Part shown: piece by piece, positions 22,283 to 37,324 of the stretch | Layout of the letters: every line of letters begins with the position of its first letter | How positions within the stretch are numbered: the first letter of the stretch is position 1 | Source of the DNA: Halorussus vallis | GTDB taxonomy: Archaea; Halobacteriota; Halobacteria; Halobacteriales; Haladaptataceae | NCBI RefSeq assembly: GCF_024138165.1 | Contig: NZ_CP100001.1 | Location: 186,001-250,000, forward strand | Length of the DNA stretch: 64,000 nucleotides | Reading direction: 5' to 3' | Made by a program: the position numbers and the translations under genes | The notes under the pieces: model-generated | Database searches by the model: none | Told to the model about the DNA's origin: nothing | What the model saw: the letters and a program-made list of their open reading frames with translations, nothing else

Positions 22283-22314
22283 CGTTTGCGATTTCGCTAA
22301 CGAAATCGCAAACG
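22283..22314. repeat. CG-hexad array forming a perfect hairpin (14-bp arms, CTAA loop)
   Basis: CG occurs at 22283, 22289, 22295, 22301, 22307 and 22313, exactly every 6 bp, with TTTG, ATTT, CTAA, AAAT and CAAA between. The arms 22283-22296 and 22301-22314 are perfect inverted repeats. It sits between two converging genes, ending 2 bases before the antiporter stop, so it may act as a bidirectional terminator, yet it follows the same 6-bp rule as the arrays near parA. Confidence 0.85.
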
Positions 22315-23992: not shown

Positions 23993-24076
23993 GCCATCAC
24001 AGACGGCGAACGGCGCCTTAAGCGTGGGGCGGCGGAACCGCCACCCGTCCGGGGGTTCGTAGACGACGCTCGTTCG

Positions 24077-24142
24077 CGCAAACGTTTTCGTTTGCGATTA
24101 CGGAAACGCAGACGGTCGTTTACGATTGCGAAAACGTAGACG
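24077..24142. repeat. CG-hexad array (12 hexads, one 4-bp phase shift)
   Basis: CG falls at 24077, 24083, 24089, 24095, 24101, 24107 and 24113, then after a 4-bp step at 24117, 24123, 24129, 24135 and 24141. The spacers are AT-rich (TTTT, TTTG, ATTA, GAAA, TTTA, ATTG, AAAA). It lies in the 417-bp gap between the KhtT-like gene and the OYE-family gene. No gene is apparent in the gap. Confidence 0.88.
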
Positions 24143-27322: not shown

Positions 27323-30300
27323 TCAGCGAGCGAGCGCCTCGGCCAACTTCTCGACGGGATGGGTCGGCCGCTCGGCGTCCAACTGCGACCGGCAGGACGC
27401 GCCGGGCGCGACCACGGCGTCCGGGTCGGCGTCGGATATCTGTCCCCGGAGGATGTCGCCGATGGCCTGCGAGAGGTCGTAGTGCTCGGCGTGGTAGCCG
27501 AAACTCCCGGCCATCCCGCAACAGCCCGAATCGAGCGCGTCGACTTCGTAGCCCGCCCGCGAGAGGACGGCGGCGGCGTGGCCGTCGGTGCCTAGCGCCT
27601 TTGCGTTGCAGTGGCCGTGGTAGGCCAGGCGCTCTCCGGGCGCGTCGAAGTCGATGCGGTCGTCGAGGCGGTGGCGGTCGAAGAACTCGCAGACCCCGTA
27701 GGCGTTGGCCGCCAGCAGTTCGGCGTCGTCCGCGGCCCCGCCGTCGGTGGCCGCGGGTTCCGCGTCGGTGCCGGCGACCCCGTCTCCCGAGCGAGTCGGC
27801 GAGCGCACCGCGCTCGCCGACTCGCCGGTTCGGTTCGGGGGGCGACTCGGTTTCCGAAGCAAGTCAAGGTACTCGTCTTGGACCATCGCCGCGTCGGAGG
27901 GTTCGACGTAGACCACCGACCGGCCCTCCCGGACCTTCGGCGCGAACTGCGCGACGTTCGACGCGGCGCGCTCGCGGGCCAGGTCGAGGAAGCCCTCGGA
28001 GTAGGCGGGCCGACCGCTCGGGGCGGCGTCGGGCACTTCGACCCGGACGCCCGCCGCCTCCAGCACCTGGACGGCGGCGCGTCCCGCCGCCGGGTAGACG
28101 TAGTTCGTGTAGGTGTCGGGCACCAGCAGGACGCGTTCGGTCGCGTCTCGTTCGGCGATTCGCGGTCCACCGCGCGCCTCGAACCACGCGGCGAACGACC
28201 GGTCGGCGAACGTCGGCGGGTCGCGCTCGCAGGCGACACCCAGCGCCTTCTCGGCGAGCAGGCCCGCGCCGGGCAGGTCGGCGAGGCGGTTCGAGACGGG
28301 TGCGAGCGCGCTCCCGACCGCCGCGACGCGGTCGATGTTGGCGAACAGGCGCTCACGCAGGCCCGACCCCTCCCGCTCGTGGTAGCGGTGTTTGACCTCG
28401 GCCTTGAGTTTGGCGAGGTCGACCCCGGTCGGGCAGTCGCTCTGACAGCCCTTGCACCCGAGACAGAGGTCCAGCACCTCCTTCTGGAACCGCTCGGTGT
28501 ACATCTCTTCCTCGGGGAGTTCGCCGCTGATGGCCGCCCGGAGCATGTTCGCCCGGCCCCGGGTGGTCGCCATCTCCTCTTCCATCCCTCGATAGGACGG
28601 ACACATCACGTCCGAGTCGGTCTGCCGGCAGGTGCCACAGCCGTTGCAGAGTTCGACCAGGTGCGAGAAGCCGCCTTCCTCGGAGAAGTCCTGCTCGGTG
28701 GTCGGTTCGAGCGACGAGTAAGCGGGGCCGTACCGCAGGTGCTCGCGCATGTCGGCCCCGACGCCGCGGTTCGGGTCGGCGTCGGGGCCGGACGGCCCGA
28801 CGTCGTCGGGACCGTCCCGGAAGACGACCTTCCCGGGGTTCATCCGCCAGTCGGGGTCGAAGGCGGTCTTGAGTTCCTTGAAGGCGGCCCACAGCTCCGG
28901 GCCGTACATCTTGGGGTTGAACTGGGTGCGGGCGAGGCCGTCGCCGTGCTCGCCCGAGAAGGACCCGCGGTGGTCGAGGACCAGCGACGTCACGTCCTCG
29001 GCGATTGGCAGCATCTTCTCGACGCCCTCGCTCTCCTTGAGGTTCAACACCGGCCGGATGTGGAGGGTGCCGCTGCCGGCGTGGGCGAAGTACGCCGCCT
29101 CGGTGTCGTGGGCCTCCAGGACGCCCATGAACCCCTGGACGTACTCGGCCAGTTCCTCGGGCGGCACCGACGCGTCCTCGATGAAGGGGTAGGGCTTGGG
29201 GTCGCCCTCCATGCTCATCAGTAGCGGAATGGCCGCCTTCCGGAGCTTCCAGAGCTTCGCCTGTTCGGCGTCGTCGTAGGCCTCCAGCACGTCGAACGCT
29301 GCGCCCGCGTGGACGAAGTGGGCGCTCGCCTCCGCGATAGGCGCCTCCAGGTCGTCGTGGAGGTCCGAGTCGAACTCCAGCATCAGCGCCGCGGCCGCGT
29401 CGTCGGGAATCGGCTCGGCGTACTCGGCGTACTCCGCCGAGTCGCGGGCGAGGCGGAACACCTCCTCGTCCATGAGTTCGACCGCGCTCGGGTCGAACTC
29501 CAGGGCCTCGGGCACCGCCTCCATCGCGTCGACGAGGTCCGAGAAGCAGAAGAGCGCGAGCGCGGTTGCCTCCGGCGTCTCGACCAGCGAGAGCGTCGCC
29601 TCGGTGACGGTGCCGAGGGTCCCCTCGGCGCCGACGAACAGTTTGGCGAGGTTGACGCATTCGTTTCCGTTTGCGTTTTCGTAAACGCATTCGTGGAGGT
29701 TGTAGCCGCTGACCGACCGCTTGAGGTCGGGGTATCGGGCCTCGATCTCATCGGCGTTGTCCGCGACGAGGTCCCGGACGGTGCGGTAGAGTTCGGCTTC
29801 CCTCCCTCCCTCGGCGAGGATCTCCTCCCACTCCGGGCCGCCGACCTTGACCTCACGCGCGCGGACGCGAGTGCCGTCGGCCAGCACGGCCTCGCACTCC
29901 TCGACGTAGGCGTCGGTGATGCCGTACCGAACCGAGTGGGCGCCCGTCGAGTTGTTCCCGATGCCGCCGCCGACGGTGGCGCGGTTCGAGGAGGCGGGGT
30001 CGGGCGCGAACTTCAGGCCCCACTCTTCGAGCCGGGCGTCGAGGTGGTCCTGGACCACGCCGGGTTGGACCGTCGCGCGCTTCGCATCGGGGTCGACGTC
30101 CAGAATCGCGTCCATGTGCCGCGAGCAGTCGAGGACGACGCAGCCCGGCCCGACCGACTGGCCGGCCAGCGACGACCCGGCGCCGCGGGGGAGCACCGGC
30201 GCGTCGTGGGCGGCCGCGACGCGCATCGCGGCCGCCACGTCGTCGGCGTCGGTCGGGAAGACCACGCCCGCCGGGCGGGCCTGGTAGATGCTCCCGTCGG

Positions 30301-30478
30301 TGGCGTAGAGGACCTGGCTGTACTCGTCGAAGCGGACCGCGCCCTCGCAGGCCAACCGGAGGTCGGCCGCGAGGGCGGCGTGTTCGGGGTCGTCCGGCGC
30401 GTCGAGGTCGAGCGACGCCCGGTAGCTCTCGAAATCGGGGCGGTCGGCCGGCGGAGACGACATGGGTGAGGATGGCAC
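27323..30478 (-). CDS. FAD-linked D-lactate dehydrogenase-like oxidoreductase fused to Fe-S/CCG domains
   Basis: A 1051-residue enzyme joining a GlcD-type flavoprotein to a GlpC/LutA-type Fe-S protein. Residues 50-230 bind FAD (PRGAGSSLAGQS), 300-545 are the FAD-oxidase C domain (HAGSGTLHIRP, SGEHGDGLAR), 620-705 hold two 4Fe-4S motifs (CNGCGTC, CLGCKGCQSDCP), and about 770-1050 carry CCG-domain segments (YHGHCNAKALG, SGCCGMAGSFGYH). It should oxidise D-lactate or glycolate and pass electrons to the respiratory chain. Two oddities: a CG-hexad array encodes about residues 262-275 inside the FAD domain, and a low-complexity linker near residue 890 contains a 16-bp palindrome. The second Met, five codons in, is an equally good start. 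Confidence 0.9.
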   Translation of the reverse strand: MPSSPMSSPPADRPDFESYRASLDLDAPDDPEHAALAADLRLACEGAVRFDEYSQVLYATDGSIYQARPAGVVFPTDADDVAAAMRVAAAHDAPVLPRGAGSSLAGQSVGPGCVVLDCSRHMDAILDVDPDAKRATVQPGVVQDHLDARLEEWGLKFAPDPASSNRATVGGGIGNNSTGAHSVRYGITDAYVEECEAVLADGTRVRAREVKVGGPEWEEILAEGGREAELYRTVRDLVADNADEIEARYPDLKRSVSGYNLHECVYENANGNECVNLAKLFVGAEGTLGTVTEATLSLVETPEATALALFCFSDLVDAMEAVPEALEFDPSAVELMDEEVFRLARDSAEYAEYAEPIPDDAAAALMLEFDSDLHDDLEAPIAEASAHFVHAGAAFDVLEAYDDAEQAKLWKLRKAAIPLLMSMEGDPKPYPFIEDASVPPEELAEYVQGFMGVLEAHDTEAAYFAHAGSGTLHIRPVLNLKESEGVEKMLPIAEDVTSLVLDHRGSFSGEHGDGLARTQFNPKMYGPELWAAFKELKTAFDPDWRMNPGKVVFRDGPDDVGPSGPDADPNRGVGADMREHLRYGPAYSSLEPTTEQDFSEEGGFSHLVELCNGCGTCRQTDSDVMCPSYRGMEEEMATTRGRANMLRAAISGELPEEEMYTERFQKEVLDLCLGCKGCQSDCPTGVDLAKLKAEVKHRYHEREGSGLRERLFANIDRVAAVGSALAPVSNRLADLPGAGLLAEKALGVACERDPPTFADRSFAAWFEARGGPRIAERDATERVLLVPDTYTNYVYPAAGRAAVQVLEAAGVRVEVPDAAPSGRPAYSEGFLDLARERAASNVAQFAPKVREGRSVVYVEPSDAAMVQDEYLDLLRKPSRPPNRTGESASAVRSPTRSGDGVAGTDAEPAATDGGAADDAELLAANAYGVCEFFDRHRLDDRIDFDAPGERLAYHGHCNAKALGTDGHAAAVLSRAGYEVDALDSGCCGMAGSFGYHAEHYDLSQAIGDILRGQISDADPDAVVAPGASCRSQLDAERPTHPVEKLAEALAR
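27791..27825. repeat. Perfect inverted repeat in the D-lactate dehydrogenase linker (16-bp arms, ACC loop)
   Basis: The arms 27791-27806 and 27810-27825 are exactly complementary. The outer half GCGAGTCGG is shared with the palindrome at 43244-43278, which has the same ACC loop and lies in a linker of the related Lut protein. Confidence 0.75.
29656..29693. repeat. CG-hexad array inside a coding sequence
   Basis: CG falls at 29656, 29662, 29668, 29674, 29680, 29686 and 29692. Spacers are CATT, TTTC, TTTG, TTTT, TAAA and CATT, as in the intergenic arrays. It is translated in frame as part of HECVYENANGNECVN within the FAD domain of the D-lactate dehydrogenase, where relatives normally have a shorter loop between SGYNL and the FNLARL-type strand. 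Confidence 0.85.
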
Positions 30479-30540
30479 GCACAGAGGCTTTAATTTCGGG
30501 GTCGGTGGAGGGTGACTTCGGAGTCGGAAAAGGGCAATTA

Positions 30541-30568
30541 CGGTCGGCGTCGGCGTCGACGCCGACCG
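30541..30568. repeat. Inverted repeat (11-bp arms, 6-nt loop)
   Basis: The arms 30541-30551 and 30558-30568 are complementary. The element lies 60-90 bases upstream of the D-lactate dehydrogenase start, so it may be an operator rather than a terminator. Nothing else but the hexad array at 30745 was seen in the 415-bp gap to the next gene. Confidence 0.4.
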
Positions 30569-30744
30569 CGGGCGACCTCCGCTCCGCGCGACCGCTGACC
30601 GTGGTCGCGGCGGGCCGCCGAGGAAATCGTCGAGTCTCAGAAATCACGCACTCACGGACGTTTATCGGCGAGTTCGTCGCGCTAGTGGCGCTTTTCGCCC
30701 GCGGTCGACGTCCGCCGAGGAGGCGAACGGGTCGCTTCCCCGAA

Positions 30745-30788
30745 CGTACGCGTTTCCGTAAACGTGCTCGCAAACGCAAGCGTAAACG
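30745..30788. repeat. CG-hexad array (8 hexads)
   Basis: CG at 30745, 30751, 30757, 30763, 30769, 30775, 30781 and 30787 with spacers TACG, TTTC, TAAA, TGCT, CAAA, CAAG and TAAA. It lies about 105 bases upstream of the MCM-like gene. The Arg/Lys-rich ORFs predicted across it are by-products of the 6-bp repeat. Confidence 0.87.
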
Positions 30789-30893
30789 GCGTGGAAACCG
30801 CGACACTGCGTCGCCTCGCTAGGAGTACACTAAAGCACCCGGGGCGGCGACAGGAGGCTCGTAACAAAGACGGACCGCCGAGACTGGCCGTGC

Positions 30894-31628
30894 ATGACCG
30901 TCCGTCCGAGCGACCTGACCGAAAAGTGGTACGAGTACGTGTACCGCGAGCGGGCAGAGCGCGTGCGACGATTCGTCGAAACCTACCCCGACGAGCGCTC
31001 GCTATCGGTCAGTTACGACCGGTTCGGCCACGACTACCAGTTCTCCCGACCGCTGCTGTCGAATCCCGACGAGGTGTTCCGAGCGGGCAGGGCGGCCCTC
31101 GGGCGCTTCCTTCAGGGTTCAGACGACGGAGGCCTCGACGCGGTCTACCTCCGCGTGAACGACCTGCCCGAGCGTAGCGAGGTGTCGCTCGCCGACCTCC
31201 GGGCCGAACACCTGAACGAACTCCACACCGCGCGCTGTCGGGTCACCGGCGTCGACGAGGTCCGGCCGAAGGTCGTCGTCGCGGCGTTCCGGTGCGCCAA
31301 GTGCGAGCAGGTGACCAGGCGCGTCCCCCAGCAGGGCCGGTCGTTCCGCGAGCACGCCAAGTGTCCTCGGTGCAGTTCGGTCGGCTACCTCTCGTTCGCC
31401 CCCGAGGAGAGCGAGTACGTCGACGCTCAGACGGTCGAACTCCGGGACTTGCGGGCCGAGACGAGCGACGACCGCATCGTCGCCTTCCTCGAACACGACC
31501 TCGCGGGGACGGTCCAATCGGACGACGAGGTGCGGACGGTCGTCATCCCGCGCGCGAAGCGAACCGGCGACTCGACGGTCACCGAGCGCTGGGTCGAAAC
31601 CGTGAGTATGGAGCACTTAACTCCCTGA
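30894..31628 (+). CDS. Stand-alone MCM N-terminal-like (OB-fold, zinc-binding) protein
   Basis: A 244-residue protein resembling only the N-terminal half of the replicative helicase MCM. It has the helical bundle (residues 1-75), the strand VYLRVNDLP, the block SLADLRAEHLNELHTARCRVTGVDEVRPKV typical of the MCM OB-fold entry, and a zinc site C134-x2-C137 and C157-x2-C160. The AAA+ ATPase domain is absent, and the gene ends normally with ordinary codon use. It probably binds single-stranded DNA or modulates MCM or plasmid-type replication (inference). Confidence 0.72.
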   Translation: MTVRPSDLTEKWYEYVYRERAERVRRFVETYPDERSLSVSYDRFGHDYQFSRPLLSNPDEVFRAGRAALGRFLQGSDDGGLDAVYLRVNDLPERSEVSLADLRAEHLNELHTARCRVTGVDEVRPKVVVAAFRCAKCEQVTRRVPQQGRSFREHAKCPRCSSVGYLSFAPEESEYVDAQTVELRDLRAETSDDRIVAFLEHDLAGTVQSDDEVRTVVIPRAKRTGDSTVTERWVETVSMEHLTP

Positions 31629-31739
31629 ACCGACCGACAGCGGGCGGTTTCCACCTCGCCGGTCGCTGATACGTACTCGGCGTGTGAGCGGCCATCATGC
31701 TTTTGTCTATCGGATGACTTTGTTATTCCAGGGGAAACG

Positions 31740-32036
31740 ATGTACGACTTGACTGGTTTCCAGCGCGACCTGCTGTACGTCATCGCGGGGTTGGACGAAC
31801 CGCACGGACTCGCCATCAAAGACGAACTGGAATCGTACTACGAGAAAGAAATCCACCACGGCCGTCTGTATCCGAACCTCGACACACTCGTCGACAAGGG
31901 GTTCGTCGAGAAGGGCCAGCGCGACCGCCGGACCAACTACTACACGCTGACCCGGCGAGGCACGCGCGAAATCGAGGCCCGCCGCGAGTGGGAGGCACAG
32001 TACGTCGACCACGAGTCCGAGCAACTCACCGCGTGA
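31740..32036 (+). CDS. PadR-family transcriptional regulator
   Basis: A 98-residue winged-helix protein consisting of just the PadR domain: FQRDLLYVIAG, DEPHGLAIKDELESYY, GRLYPNLDTLVDKGFVEKG and the Tyr/Thr-rich wing TNYYTLTRRG. It has the short C-terminal helix of small haloarchaeal PadRs. Likely a repressor; no target is evident. The region upstream (31700-31735) is AT-rich and promoter-like. Confidence 0.88.
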   Translation: MYDLTGFQRDLLYVIAGLDEPHGLAIKDELESYYEKEIHHGRLYPNLDTLVDKGFVEKGQRDRRTNYYTLTRRGTREIEARREWEAQYVDHESEQLTA

Positions 32037-32043
32037 CGTCGAC

Positions 32044-32718
32044 TCAGGGGTGGGACGAGGAGAGCGCCGCGCCGACCACGGCCGCGTCGAGCGACTGCGC
32101 CCAACGATAGACTGGACTCTGAGCGGCGAGGACGTACTCGTCGCCGTCCTCTTCTAACACTGAGAGTTCGACCAGCCGTTCGACGTGGACCCACACCGCC
32201 TTCCGGGAGACGCCGGTCATCCGGTGGAAGTCCTCCTGGGTGAACGTCCGGCCGGCGTCGGCGGTTATTAGCGCGTCGAGCAACAGTCGCACGGATTCTA
32301 AGCGGGCGAGGTAGTGCAGTCCGGTTTCGTCGTCGGGCGCGCCGGTCGCCTCGACGGCGGCCCCGAGTTCGTTCGCGGCGTGGCGGACGCCGCTGTACTC
32401 GTTGACGCGGTACGCGCCCTCGTCGGCGACGAGCACGCCGAGCGCGATGAGCGTGTCGGCGGCGTCCTCGACCGCGTCGGCGTCGAGGTCGGCCATCGAC
32501 GCGAGGTTCTCGGTGCCGTAGCGCGCACCGGCGTCGGCGTCGCGGAGCGCGTCCACGAGCGCGCGAGTCGGGCCTTCACTGGCCAGCAGGAGCCAGCCGC
32601 TGGGGTAGGAGAGCCGCGCTTCCTTGATGCCGCTCTCGTCGGCGAGTTCGAGCATCTCGGACTCGGACTCGGCCGTCCGGAGTTGGAAGTCGTCGGTCTC
32701 GGTCGTCGGAACGGTCAT
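32044..32718 (-). CDS. Winged-helix regulator-like protein
   Basis: A 224-residue acidic cytosolic protein. The C-terminal 75 residues contain a wHTH (RTFTQEDFHRMTGVSRKAVWVHVERLVELSVLE), and an earlier HTH-like unit appears around residues 60-105. The N-terminal part (GWLLLASEGPTRALVDAL) may be a sensor. The ATG at 32718 is chosen because a promoter-like AGCTTTTTGTTCCA lies 20 bases upstream. It is convergent with the PadR gene, 7 bases apart. Confidence 0.68.
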   Translation of the reverse strand: MTVPTTETDDFQLRTAESESEMLELADESGIKEARLSYPSGWLLLASEGPTRALVDALRDADAGARYGTENLASMADLDADAVEDAADTLIALGVLVADEGAYRVNEYSGVRHAANELGAAVEATGAPDDETGLHYLARLESVRLLLDALITADAGRTFTQEDFHRMTGVSRKAVWVHVERLVELSVLEEDGDEYVLAAQSPVYRWAQSLDAAVVGAALSSSHP

Positions 32719-32738
32719 TACGGTGGGGATTTCGGGGA

Positions 32739-32752
32739 TGGAACAAAAAGCT
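32739..32752 (-). promoter_or_regulatory. 14-bp promoter motif shared with 34559-34572
   Basis: On the minus strand AGCTTTTTGTTCCA lies 20 bases before the ATG at 32718. The identical 14 bases lie 21 bases before the ATG at 34537. The T-run falls at about -29, the TATA position of a leaderless haloarchaeal promoter. Confidence 0.5.
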
Positions 32753-32833
32753 ACCGTGCGGGCGGGGCGAGCGCGTTGGAGAAGAGCGGCGCGGCGAACC
32801 GCCGCGGGTGTGACACGAATCCGACCCGAATCC

Positions 32834-32873
32834 ACGGCGAGTCCGACGCGACTCGTCGCGTCGGACTCGCCGT
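32834..32873 (-). terminator. Long perfect hairpin (18-bp arms, CTCG loop)
   Basis: The arms 32834-32851 and 32856-32873 are exactly complementary. The hairpin is 7 bases past the stop of the gene at 32881-33270 and upstream of the 32044-32718 gene, so it may end the first transcript. It has no T-tract. Confidence 0.55.
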
Positions 32874-32880
32874 ACCGCGG

Positions 32881-33270
32881 TCAGTCGGGGGTGGTCGTCT
32901 CGCAGTCGACGTTCCACGCGCAGTCGCTCGCATCGCAGATGCGCCGGTACATCCCCCGGAGCGCGGCCGACGCCGTCTCCGGGAGGACGTGGAACTCGAC
33001 GTTCCCGTAGCGGACGACGATCCGGAAGACGGTCCGGCGGCGCTCGTCGTGGACGAGGTAGACCGGCGCGGGGAGGTCGAACCAGTCGCCGTAGGTGTAG
33101 CCGTCACCGTCGAGGATGCGCTCGACGAGCGCCGCCAGTTCCCCGTCGGACGACGCCGGGTCCGGCACGAGGCGGAAGACGGTGCCGCCCTCGTACTCCA
33201 CGCCGCTGTCTCGGGGGTAGGTGCGCTCGGGTCGACGCGGGATGTCGAAGGTCGGCGCGCGGTCGGTCAT
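32881..33270 (-). CDS. Conserved hypothetical acidic protein
   Basis: A 129-residue soluble protein without a recognised domain, with many aromatic residues (YTYGDWFDLPAPVYLVHDE) and four Cys/His near the C-terminus (RRICDASDCAWNVDC) that could bind a metal. The ATG at 33270 is preferred over one 9 codons upstream. Its promoter should lie in 33271-33318. Confidence 0.6.
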   Translation of the reverse strand: MTDRAPTFDIPRRPERTYPRDSGVEYEGGTVFRLVPDPASSDGELAALVERILDGDGYTYGDWFDLPAPVYLVHDERRRTVFRIVVRYGNVEFHVLPETASAALRGMYRRICDASDCAWNVDCETTTPD

Positions 33271-33318
33271 GCGGAACGCTCGCAGGTACGGCGTCATTAC
33301 TTATCAATCTCTACCTCC

Positions 33319-33541: not shown

Positions 33542-33585
33542 CGCTAACGTTTCCGCAAACGTATCCGTAAACGATTCCGCAGACG
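33542..33585. repeat. CG-hexad array (8 hexads)
   Basis: CG at 33542, 33548, 33554, 33560, 33566, 33572, 33578 and 33584, with spacers CTAA, TTTC, CAAA, TATC, TAAA, ATTC and CAGA. Forward (TTTN) and reverse (NAAA) hexads alternate. It is followed by about 100 bp of purine-rich DNA. Confidence 0.87.
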
Positions 33586-33783
33586 GATTCCGAAGCGTTG
33601 CGAGGAGTTCGGAAACGACGAGAGACGAAAGCGAAGCGCGAGGAGAGACAGGTCAGGAGGGAGAACGACGAGTCGAGCGACGCGAGATGCGTGTAGGGTG
33701 AGGGGATCGGCGAAGGTGAGAAGAGACGACGACAGTAACAGTCGCTGGAACGACCAGCGTGAGCGCTCTAGGGACGGGACTCG

Positions 33784-35163: not shown

Positions 35164-35261
35164 CGTTTGCGTGGCCATAGACGCCTACGTTTCCCAGAGC
35201 GTTTTCGCACCCGCTTTCGGTTCGGGAATCGTTTACGAAAACGTTTCCGTTATCGTAAACG
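35164..35261. repeat. Longest CG-hexad array, upstream of parA
   Basis: Sixteen steps of 6 bp separate 35164 and 35260, and CG is present at 14 of the 17 positions (missing at 35176, 35194 and 35224). The right part (35230-35261) has TTTA, AAAA, TTTC, TTAT and TAAA spacers. It ends 31 bases before the TATA box of parA and lies between the divergent DUF456 and parA genes, where it could act as a centromere-like site and also affect transcription. Confidence 0.9.
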
Positions 35262-35292
35262 GACGTTTTTCGCGGCCGCGTCTGACGAAGGA

Positions 35293-35300
35293 CTAAATAG
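35293..35300 (+). promoter_or_regulatory. TATA box of the parA operon
   Basis: CTAAATAG centred 32 bases before the parA ATG, consistent with a leaderless or nearly leaderless transcript. The 22-bp palindrome occupies the space between this box and the start codon. Confidence 0.55.
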
Positions 35301-35304
35301 GGTG

Positions 35305-35326
35305 TTTGCGTTTGCGCAAACGCAAA
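35305..35326. promoter_or_regulatory. 22-bp perfect palindrome between TATA box and parA start (candidate operator)
   Basis: The half-site TTTGCGTTTGC (35305-35315) is followed immediately by its exact complement (35316-35326). It consists of CG-hexads (CG at 35309, 35315 and 35321), so it is the same sequence family as the arrays. Its place over the transcription start, ending 2 bases before the ATG, is where an archaeal autorepressor would bind. Confidence 0.7.
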
Positions 35327-35328
35327 TC

Positions 35329-36216
35329 ATGAGCGGGTCCATTCGCGCCTGCACCTTCCTCGACAAGGGCGGCACCGGAAAAACGACGACGGCGGCCCAC
35401 CTCGGCGTGGCGCTCGCCGAACGAGGCGACGACGTGTTGCTCATCGACCTCGCGGGCAAACAGGGCGACCTGGTCAAGCACTTCGGACAGTGGGAGACCG
35501 TCGAGCGCCAGATCGCCGAGGACGACGACTGGCCGAACATCTCGACGGTGTTCCAGGACCAGTGGGACGCCATCGCCGAGAAGTTGGGCGACGCGGCGGT
35601 CGAAGACCTCGTCATCGAAACCGACGAGAACGTCGACCTCATCCCGGCCCACCCGGGGCTGGACAGCCTCGACGCCGAACTCGGCAACATCGACGACGCC
35701 CACGACCGCTACTCGCGACTCGATTCCTTCCTCGACGAGTACATCGAACCGCTGGGCTACGACGCGGTCCTCATCGACCTCCCCGGCCTGACGAACAACG
35801 TCAGCTACAACGGCCTCTGGGCGGCGCGAAACGTCATCGCGCCGGTCGAGATGGGGCCGTTCGAGTCCGAACAGGCCGAGGCGCTCCGGGCCGACCTCGA
35901 CAAGATCGCCGAGAACTTCGACGTGGACGTCGAACTAGCGATGGTACTGCCCAACAAGGTCGACACCCGAACCACGCTCGCCGAGGAGTACCTCGACGCC
36001 TTCCGGTCGGCCTACCCCAAGGCGTTCGCGCCCGCCCACGTCCCGGTGAGCCAGGACATCCGCAACGCCGCCGAGCAGGGCCGAACCGCCTTCGCGCTGG
36101 AAGAGCCGTCCCGGACGGCGATGCGCGCACGCGAGTCGTTCCTGGAGAACGCCGAGGCGCTGGCCGATCGCCTGCGGTCGGCCAAGCCGGTGACGACCGG
36201 AGGTGAGACGGCGTGA
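35329..36216 (+). CDS. parA: ParA-family partition ATPase
   Basis: A 295-residue P-loop ATPase of the ParA/MinD/Soj class. The deviant Walker A KGGTGKT (residues 13-19) includes the signature Lys13, Walker A' is VLLIDLAGKQG (36-46) and Walker B DAVLIDLPG (145-153). There is no N-terminal HTH, so it is of the short type Ib-like group. ParA proteins bind DNA non-specifically with ATP and move cargo bound by a centromere-binding partner. The ATG at 35329 is set by the motif position and promoter; the open frame further upstream translates the hexad repeats. It overlaps the next gene by GTGA. Confidence 0.93.
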   Translation: MSGSIRACTFLDKGGTGKTTTAAHLGVALAERGDDVLLIDLAGKQGDLVKHFGQWETVERQIAEDDDWPNISTVFQDQWDAIAEKLGDAAVEDLVIETDENVDLIPAHPGLDSLDAELGNIDDAHDRYSRLDSFLDEYIEPLGYDAVLIDLPGLTNNVSYNGLWAARNVIAPVEMGPFESEQAEALRADLDKIAENFDVDVELAMVLPNKVDTRTTLAEEYLDAFRSAYPKAFAPAHVPVSQDIRNAAEQGRTAFALEEPSRTAMRARESFLENAEALADRLRSAKPVTTGGETA

Positions 36217-36608
36217 GCGACCCGGATCTCGAGGAACTCCGCCAGCAGACCCAGCGGACCGACCGCCTGGCCGAACCGGCCGCCCCGAGCGACGACGGGG
36301 GCGACGACCTGGTGGAGGAACTGGTCGACGCGCTGGCGGCCATCGACTCGGGCGAGCAAGCCAAGACGTTCGCCGCCCGTGACGCCTCGGTCACCGCGCT
36401 GTTGACGACGCTCGCCGACCGCGAGGACGACCGCCACGAGGTCGGGACCGCCCTGCAGGAGGCGCTGGGCCGGGACGCCGCGCCGTCGGAACTCGACCGT
36501 AGCGAGATCGTTCGGCTCGCGGTCCGCCTCGGACTCCGCGAAGCCGCCCCCGAGTACCTCGACGCGCTCGCCGACGCATCCGGCGAGTACGCCCGCCGAA
36601 ACGTCTGA
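36213..36608 (+). CDS. Small acidic partner of ParA, candidate centromere-binding protein
   Basis: A 131-residue protein whose GTG start overlaps the parA stop (GTGA), so translation is coupled. The N-terminal 45 residues are acidic and probably flexible. After that AKTFAARDASVTALLTTL and later LDRSEIVRLAVRLGLREAAPEYL could form strand-helix-helix elements like a ribbon-helix-helix DNA-binding unit; this is inference from pattern only. It is not a ParB/Spo0J or SegB by any motif I can see. Its position matches that of ParG, ParR or omega-type adaptors in type Ib partition operons. Confidence 0.78.
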   Translation: MSDPDLEELRQQTQRTDRLAEPAAPSDDGGDDLVEELVDALAAIDSGEQAKTFAARDASVTALLTTLADREDDRHEVGTALQEALGRDAAPSELDRSEIVRLAVRLGLREAAPEYLDALADASGEYARRNV

Positions 36609-36615
36609 CCAGGCC

Positions 36616-36672
36616 CGTTTACGATTTCGTTTCTGGATTCGTTTGCGCCACCGTTTCCCGGTTCCGTTTACG
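36616..36672. repeat. CG-hexad array 1 downstream of parA
   Basis: CG at 36616, 36622, 36628, 36640, 36646 and 36652 (36634 missing), then after a 7-bp step at 36659, 36665 and 36671. It begins 8 bases after the partner gene stop. Confidence 0.87.
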
Positions 36673-36736
36673 GAATAGCAGCTCGTCTATCGGCAGTCGC
36701 ATCGCTCGATGACGAAGAACGGGCGGTCAGCGGTGC

Positions 36737-36768
36737 CGTTTCCGAGATCGTTTGCGTATACGTTTACG
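36737..36768. repeat. CG-hexad array 2 downstream of parA
   Basis: CG at 36737, 36743, 36749, 36755, 36761 and 36767 with TTTC, AGAT, TTTG, TATA and TTTA spacers. Confidence 0.85.
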
Positions 36769-36870
36769 ATGGACGACGGTTCGGTCGACTTCGTCGCCGA
36801 AGCCAGGAGAACCGCGCGCGCATGAGTCGACGGACCAACTTCGCGGCCGGGTCCACACCGTCAGCAAATC

Positions 36871-36908
36871 CGGCACCGTTAGCGCAAACGTTTACGCGTT
36901 CGTTTACG
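36871..36908. repeat. CG-hexad array 3 downstream of parA
   Basis: CG at 36871, 36877, 36883, 36889, 36895, 36901 and 36907; the central hexads are TTAG, CAAA, TTTA, CGTT and TTTA. Confidence 0.85.
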
Positions 36909-37032
36909 GCATCCGCTTCGGAATCGACGGAATGGACCTCGATATCATCTTCGGGGAGGCCGGACGGTCGAAGCATCGGTCGGCCAATCCGGGTGATGTC
37001 GCGGACGTACGTGCAACGGCTGAAGAAAGCCA

Positions 37033-37070
37033 CGAATGCGTTTGCGTTAACGTTAACGGAGTCGTAAACG
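37033..37070. repeat. CG-hexad array 4 downstream of parA
   Basis: CG at 37033, 37039, 37045, 37051, 37057, 37063 and 37069; spacers AATG, TTTG, TTAA, TTAA, GAGT and TAAA. Confidence 0.85.
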
Positions 37071-37164
37071 CGAGGGTCGGGAACTCCGCGCTCGTCTCGA
37101 CGGTCCGGACTCCCGAGCGACCACGGGCCGGTCGCGAACCGACGCGGCTCCGGCGAAAGCGAGA

Positions 37165-37197
37165 CGCATCCGTTTCCGTGTCCGGTAAACGGATTCG
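37165..37197. repeat. CG-hexad array 5 downstream of parA
   Basis: CG at 37165, 37171, 37177 and 37183, then after a 7-bp step at 37190 and 37196. Shorter than its neighbours. Confidence 0.7.
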
Positions 37198-37262
37198 ACG
37201 GACGAGCGGGTCCGGCGGTCGGAGGGAGAATCGTCGCGCGGAGCGACGACACGTTGCCGTCG

Positions 37263-37324
37263 CGCAATCGAGTCCGTTTCCGATTACGTTTTCGCAATCG
37301 CATACGATTTCGTTTACGCGCACG
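37263..37324. repeat. CG-hexad array 6 downstream of parA (11 uninterrupted hexads)
   Basis: CG at 37263 and every 6 bp to 37323 without a miss. Spacers include TTTC, ATTA, TTTT, CAAT, CATA, ATTT and TTTA. It is the longest uninterrupted run in the window. Confidence 0.9.

Follow-up and report, generated by a model that had tools for sequence, protein, structure and literature searches.

A candidate plasmid partition locus of Halorussus vallis, built of a parA gene, a small partner gene and six-base-pair repeat arrays, and its haloarchaeal relatives

Does a parA gene of Halorussus vallis, together with the small gene that overlaps it and the short repeats that surround it, make up a plasmid partition locus, and which DNA would then serve as its centromere? 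Haloarchaea have many large replicons. The literature on haloarchaeal plasmid partition and centromeres that we searched, in which subscription journals were thinly covered, describes neither a plasmid centromere for these organisms nor the gene pair and arrays reported here. The window (i.e., the whole 64,000-nucleotide stretch that was analyzed) spans positions 186001-250000 of NZ_CP100001.1 and lies on replicon C2, which comprises 557,511 bp of a 5.05-Mb assembly. Plasmids orthologous to C2, with sizes of 303-434 kb, were identified in Halorussus limi, H. aquaticus, H. caseinilyticus, H. pelagicus, and H. salilacus.

The parA gene encodes a deviant-Walker ParA ATPase of 295 residues (Pfam AAA_31, E = 4.2e-20) with the signature FLDKGGTGKTTT / DLAGKQGDL in the clade alignment, where the clade as a whole is marked by FLDKGG[TV]GKTT and DLAGKQ[GA]D. 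The protein is short, with Walker A beginning at about residue 13 and without an N-terminal HTH; only ParA/MinD-type domains were matched, and the nearest solved structures are those of Soj/ParA. As had been predicted from the sequence, the gene shares GTGA with a 131-residue gene of no known family. This partner gene lies directly downstream, overlapping parA by 4 bp, and the arrangement is repeated in relatives. Searches with the partner returned no Pfam family above the cut-off and no ParB match in Pfam or NCBIfam (CTPase and HTH domains were absent), and its public annotation on plasmids is 'hypothetical protein'. A Pfam match to Ubiq_DUF_assoc (E = 0.09) was dismissed as noise.

Upstream of parA, a block at 27323-33297 codes for an FAD/Fe-S protein, an MCM OB-domain protein, a PadR regulator, and two hypothetical proteins. 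In H. aquaticus this block follows the partner gene, whereas here it is inverted, which points to a local rearrangement.

The arrays around the pair are composed of CG every 6 bp with A/T-rich interiors, in the form CGTTTN or its complement form CGNAAA (Table 1). The original prediction had named a 17-step array upstream of parA and six arrays in the 810-bp gene-free gap after the partner, and all of these are present. The cluster is nevertheless larger than was described, with five more arrays up to 22283 and three satellites elsewhere. Likewise, the 6-bp register of the predicted units held up but their strict contiguity did not, as strong sites are often 12 bp apart.

Table 1. Features of the parA-partner locus and its repeat arrays (positions in the window).
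Feature	Position	Strand	Remark
Further array, palindromic	22283-22314		Sequence pattern
Further double array	24071-24142		Sequence pattern
Further array	29656-29693		Sequence pattern; in coding sequence 27323-30478(-)
Further array	30733-30788		Sequence pattern
Further array	33542-33603		Sequence pattern; 1.6 kb upstream of the 35164 array
Hexad array upstream of parA	35164-35261		17 six-bp steps, CG at 14 of 17
GTCTGACG element	35280-35287	+	Conserved among parA-clade loci, 5' of the TATA-like box
TATA-like box ctaaata	35293-35299	+	Sequence and aligned position in relatives; putative function
Perfect 22-bp hexad palindrome TTTGCGTTTGCGCAAACGCAAA	35305-35326		Candidate operator at presumed parA transcription start
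parA	35329-36216	+	Deviant-Walker ParA ATPase
Partner	36213-36608	+	Candidate centromere-binding protein
Downstream array 1	36616-36673		Sequence pattern
Downstream array 2	36731-36768		Sequence pattern
Downstream array 3	36871-36908		Sequence pattern
Downstream array 4	37033-37070		Sequence pattern
Downstream array 5, weak	37165-37190		Sequence pattern
Downstream array 6	37263-37324		11 CG steps

Matches to CGTTTNCGNNNNCGNNNNCG numbered 31 against 0.56 expected, a count reached by 0 of 100 shuffles. Within the window, 48 of the 52 CGTTTNCG sites fall between 22283 and 37324 (15 kb; binomial p ~6e-26), and their density in this cluster (3.2/kb) is 16-fold that on the rest of the 557-kb replicon (0.20/kb). 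Genome-wide, where our statements on arrays are based on pattern searches and on three fully read C2 replicons, CGTTTNCGNWWNCG has 52 matches, 29 of them in the 15-kb cluster and 8 in three short clusters on C2; the same pattern read backwards yielded 4. The distribution is thereby uneven and linked to parA, with the arrays clustering at the parA-partner pair. It is very unlikely that the repeats are bound by some other protein (histone-like or nucleoid) or are functionless low-complexity DNA. CG is frequent in this genome and a codon-driven 3-bp periodicity exists, but low-GC control DNA of C2 gave only a 1.6-1.7-fold signal at lags 6/12, as compared to 5.4-5.9 at the arrays; moreover, members of the genus that lack the partner have few matches, and the repeat changes along with the partner, as detailed below.

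The array inside the gene of the FAD/Fe-S protein encodes part of the peptide YENANGNECVN, and its sequence recurs, over 44 bp, at 35256-35299 of a related replicon (G006). This DNA seems, from its sequence, to be both code and site.

The 22-bp palindrome made of the same hexads, predicted upstream of parA, proved to be perfect and is identical in 13 of 14 Halorussus loci. It starts 5 bp after the TATA-like box and ends 2 bp before the ATG, and thus would cover the presumed start of a near-leaderless transcript, which makes it a plausible repressor site. The motif GTCTGAC, usually 5-6 bp before the TATA-like box, was detected in 54 of 70 related loci (0.37 expected). GTCTGAC is also kept at loci with a swapped partner, so its connection may be with ParA or the promoter and not with the partner.

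Strong arrays in the three fully read replicons form one cluster within ~20 kb of parA, at 208-223 kb in the present genome (G000), 25-45 kb in G006, and 21-34 kb in G005, plus a few satellites. The isolated satellites on C2 (63184, 317616, and 435015) are 100-185 kb apart around the replicon and sit at places related to those of the satellites in G005 and G006. Specifically, one satellite is near a beta-eliminating-lyase gene in all three (G005:116236, G006:256064, and G000:63184), and the G005:242273 satellite is situated between regulator and Zn-dehydrogenase genes, which are separated in G006 and G000 and have two arrays near them. Because reversed sequence reaches scores of 28, satellites that score below 30 (such as G000:63184 and 317616) are believable mainly by their place.

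These positions bear on the possibility that the arrays are operators. The partner would then repress a regulon to which its own operon belongs, with ParA acting as no more than its co-regulator or positioning something other than the plasmid. One array does overlap the parA start, some metabolic genes (lyase, aldo-keto reductase) have a satellite near their start codon, and the archaeal ribbon-helix-helix (RHH) proteins CdrS and aCcr1 are regulators (PMC12284271). However, most arrays are found behind the operon, in DNA without genes, or within a gene, the neighbors of the satellites are unrelated metabolic genes, and many unrelated plasmids carry the two genes as a unit; we consider this explanation unlikely. 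An origin of replication with iterons, beside which parA would lie by chance, is an extremely improbable source of arrays that are dispersed over 15 kb plus satellites and whose type tracks the partner. Plasmid origins do often have clustered short repeats beside par genes, but the plasmids inspected show no annotated replication initiator beside the pair, and the replicon's own Cdc6/Orc gene (at 402,980) is ~180 kb from the pair. We count this last distance against partition as well. With this point included, the locus is very probably a ParA-driven, type-Ib-like plasmid partition locus.

Homologs of the partner were present in 13 of 17 congeners, and all 13 orthologous parA-partner pairs are accompanied by adjoining arrays, with 9-21 CGTTTNCG sites within 3.4 kb. 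Arrays and partner co-occur in the genus, as the original prediction implied: matches to the array pattern numbered 23-58 in congeners with the partner, versus 7, 15, and 18 in three near-complete genomes without it. The fourth congener without the partner, with a genome that is 62% complete, had 16 matches.

A profile search of 391 Halobacteria genomes recovered the partner in 85, representing 33 of 86 genera and mostly on small contigs of plasmid size. A ParA-based scan of named genomes revealed ~40 more loci, among them one in the nanohaloarchaeal metagenome-assembled genome Candidatus Nanosalinarum J07AB56, and 56 further loci (L203-L258) were added after the first set. In nearly every locus with long enough flanks, the gene before the partner encodes a ParA of the same clade. 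Short-repeat arrays span the parA start and follow the partner stop at nearly all loci. All 30 PLSDB plasmids with the partner are haloarchaeal, and among 345 sampled genomes of the phylum it was found only in Halobacteriales. By label, the outliers are the Nanosalinarum locus (L085) and a contig assigned to Candidatus Nealsonbacteria (L104, PUMP01000007.1), which carries the pair with CGTATN arrays and represents either a mis-binned haloarchaeal plasmid or a real transfer. These observations support the reading of the locus as a new segregation locus, but as one of a haloarchaeal plasmid family and not as a single locus. A viral origin was rejected, as IMG/VR contained one distant ParA match (21% identity) and phage records contained none for ParA or the partner.

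Outside Halorussus, the same positions are occupied by CTATAG, CGTATN, CTGTAT/GTATCTG, GTAACC, and rarer repeats. Among non-redundant loci of the three main classes, neighboring sites are spaced by multiples of 6 bp in 178 of 185 cases for CGTTTN (96%), 44 of 49 for CTATAG (90%), and 58 of 60 for CGTAT (97%). For CTATAG the usual distances are 12, 24, or 36 bp and a distance of 6 bp never occurs, which makes this class a hexad followed by a 6-bp spacer. Autocorrelation of 3-mers peaks only at multiples of 6, except in a subfamily with the partner residues N-x-[TN]-x-R, in which the peaks are at 13 and 26 with sub-steps of 6+7. The 13-bp period was observed at loci L221, L223, L225, L228, L235, L237, L238, L242, and L250-L252. 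Two systems of different repeat class share a contig in Halorubrum halophilum (L077) and in Candidatus Nanosalinarum J07AB56 (L085), each with its own repeat, as would be expected if the classes are mutually compatible.

The alternate partner residues 52-54-56 sort the loci by repeat class. T-A-R was associated with CGTTTN in 23 of 23 loci, T-S-W with CTATAG in 25 of 30 (the others comprising two with CCATATATGG and three with no repeat), T-S-R with CGTAT(N) in 11 of 13, N-T-R with CTGTAT in 12 of 13, N-N-R with GTAACC in 3 of 3, and T-T-Y with CTATAG in 3 of 3. Classes A-C had already been set when loci L203-L258 were added, whereas the loci described by classes D, F, and G also served to define them. 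Loci without the expected repeat thus amount to 5 of 30 for T-S-W and 2 of 13 for T-S-R. The i, i+2, i+4 spacing of the three residues is that of one face of a strand. Repeat classes are strongly clustered on the ParA tree, and most of the residue and repeat counts therefore reflect shared descent. The aromatic/arginine residue is switched in three supported independent pairs; the repeat changes in the same direction in two to three of these and in the opposite direction in none, although three independent branches are too few for significance. The association between partner and repeat is accordingly suggestive and not statistically independent.

Little array signal was detected at loci with an acidic or serine residue 56 or with a swapped partner, both of which are small sets. 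At L080, L083, and L107, a ParA of the same clade is followed by a second gene that combines the N-terminal LxxLKxxT..DR motif (two copies) with a Cys-rich domain; the DNA-binding strand is absent and there is no clear array. This suggests that the DNA-binding part of the partner may be swapped as a module.

On balance, we favor the view that these loci form an undescribed, haloarchaea-wide centromere family in which three alternate strand residues of the adaptor specify the repeat and its step (6/12 or 13 bp). If true, such a readable code would allow several of these plasmids to share one cell without interference.

The partner has an N-terminal LEELRQQT..DR motif and a predicted DNA-contacting strand (A50-K-T52-F-A54-A-R56-D57) followed by helices. 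In an AlphaFold2 model (pLDDT 86.8), segment 50-57 directly precedes a helix and is extended yet unpaired in the monomer (block-mean pLDDT > 90), as would be expected of a ribbon strand whose pairing requires the dimer. Across Pfam and NCBIfam, the two families with matches in the largest number of members are both of RHH type, and all matches are weak: RHH_1 in 5 of 37 members (best E 0.022) and the RHH regulator family aCcr1 in 6 of 37 (best E 0.0013). Foldseek and VIA-align searches with the full and C-terminal monomer models yielded no clear match (best E 2.6 and 3.1; best Z 3.4 and 3.3). Since an isolated monomer has no second ribbon strand, this is no evidence against an RHH fold. A PDB sequence search with the partner family returned chance matches only, with no omega and no SegB chain among them. 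Weak profile matches and topology together make an RHH fold probable.

These features can be combined in a model of how the locus might operate. ParA and the partner would be made from one operon, and partner dimers, probably of RHH type, would insert a two-stranded ribbon into the major groove at the short repeats, aligned along the arrays in a fixed register and in either of the two orientations. The flanking arrays and the few satellites elsewhere on the replicon would together act as the centromere. The N-terminal LEELRxxT..DR segment of the partner may contact ParA and trigger its ATPase, so that nucleoid-bound ParA would pull sister plasmids apart, while partner bound to the palindrome over the parA start would repress its own operon.

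For culturable, plasmid-bearing organisms, the locus offers named genes with exactly placed sites and a recognition code open to falsification. Natural variation provides ready swaps, and matched and mismatched pairs of adaptor and array predict plasmid compatibility. Stable-maintenance modules for haloarchaeal vectors are a further prospect.

All hallmarks of type Ib partition that we compared, namely a short ParA, a small downstream partner in the operon, and repeats over the promoter, are matched here. ParF/ParG of TP228, also of type Ib, comprises a ParA and a small RHH partner that acts with degenerate short boxes; compared by description, the present system resembles it in its ParA, small partner, and short boxes, but differs from it in that ParF/ParG has tetramer boxes with spacers. 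In contrast to type Ia systems and ParB-CTPases, the partner is only 131 residues long and lacks ParB domains. AspA-ParB-ParA of pNOB8 is likewise an archaeal plasmid partition system with a ParA, but it is made up of three genes, ordered aspA-parB-parA, and its AspA is a winged-HTH protein (PMC5120986), whereas here there are two genes with parA first. SegAB of the Sulfolobales shares an archaeal ParA-like ATPase and a small RHH partner (RHH being only probable here), and its sites, too, are found both in front of the operon and dispersed at other places; each site bound by SegB is, however, a single 13-bp palindrome (TCTAGASTCTAGA) and not an array (PMC12284271). The SegB site is not enriched in the window, with 1 match at 3 mismatches against 6.8 expected.

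The delta/omega system of pSM19035 (type Ib) likewise pairs a small ParA with a small RHH partner, a fold that is only probable for the haloarchaeal protein. Its short repeats are unspaced, occur in either orientation, and overlap promoters so that they are both centromere and operator; six sites hold 7-10 unspaced heptads each, and ParA activation requires four contiguous repeats (PMC9499535). Several arrays per plasmid and their overlap with promoters are a further likeness (PMC9499535). The units differ, however, as delta/omega uses a 7-bp WATCACW, of which no double heptad was found in the 64-kb window, as opposed to 6-bp hexads with frequent 12- or 13-bp steps. The present family also differs in having several co-varying repeat classes, and in PLSDB its partner matches are haloarchaeal and none is bacterial. 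The combination of a ParA, a small adaptor, and a repeat array is already known, whereas the adaptor family and its co-varying centromere repeats are undescribed in the literature searched. Delta/omega is the closest working analogue, with an adaptor whose origin, as far as sequence tells, is different.
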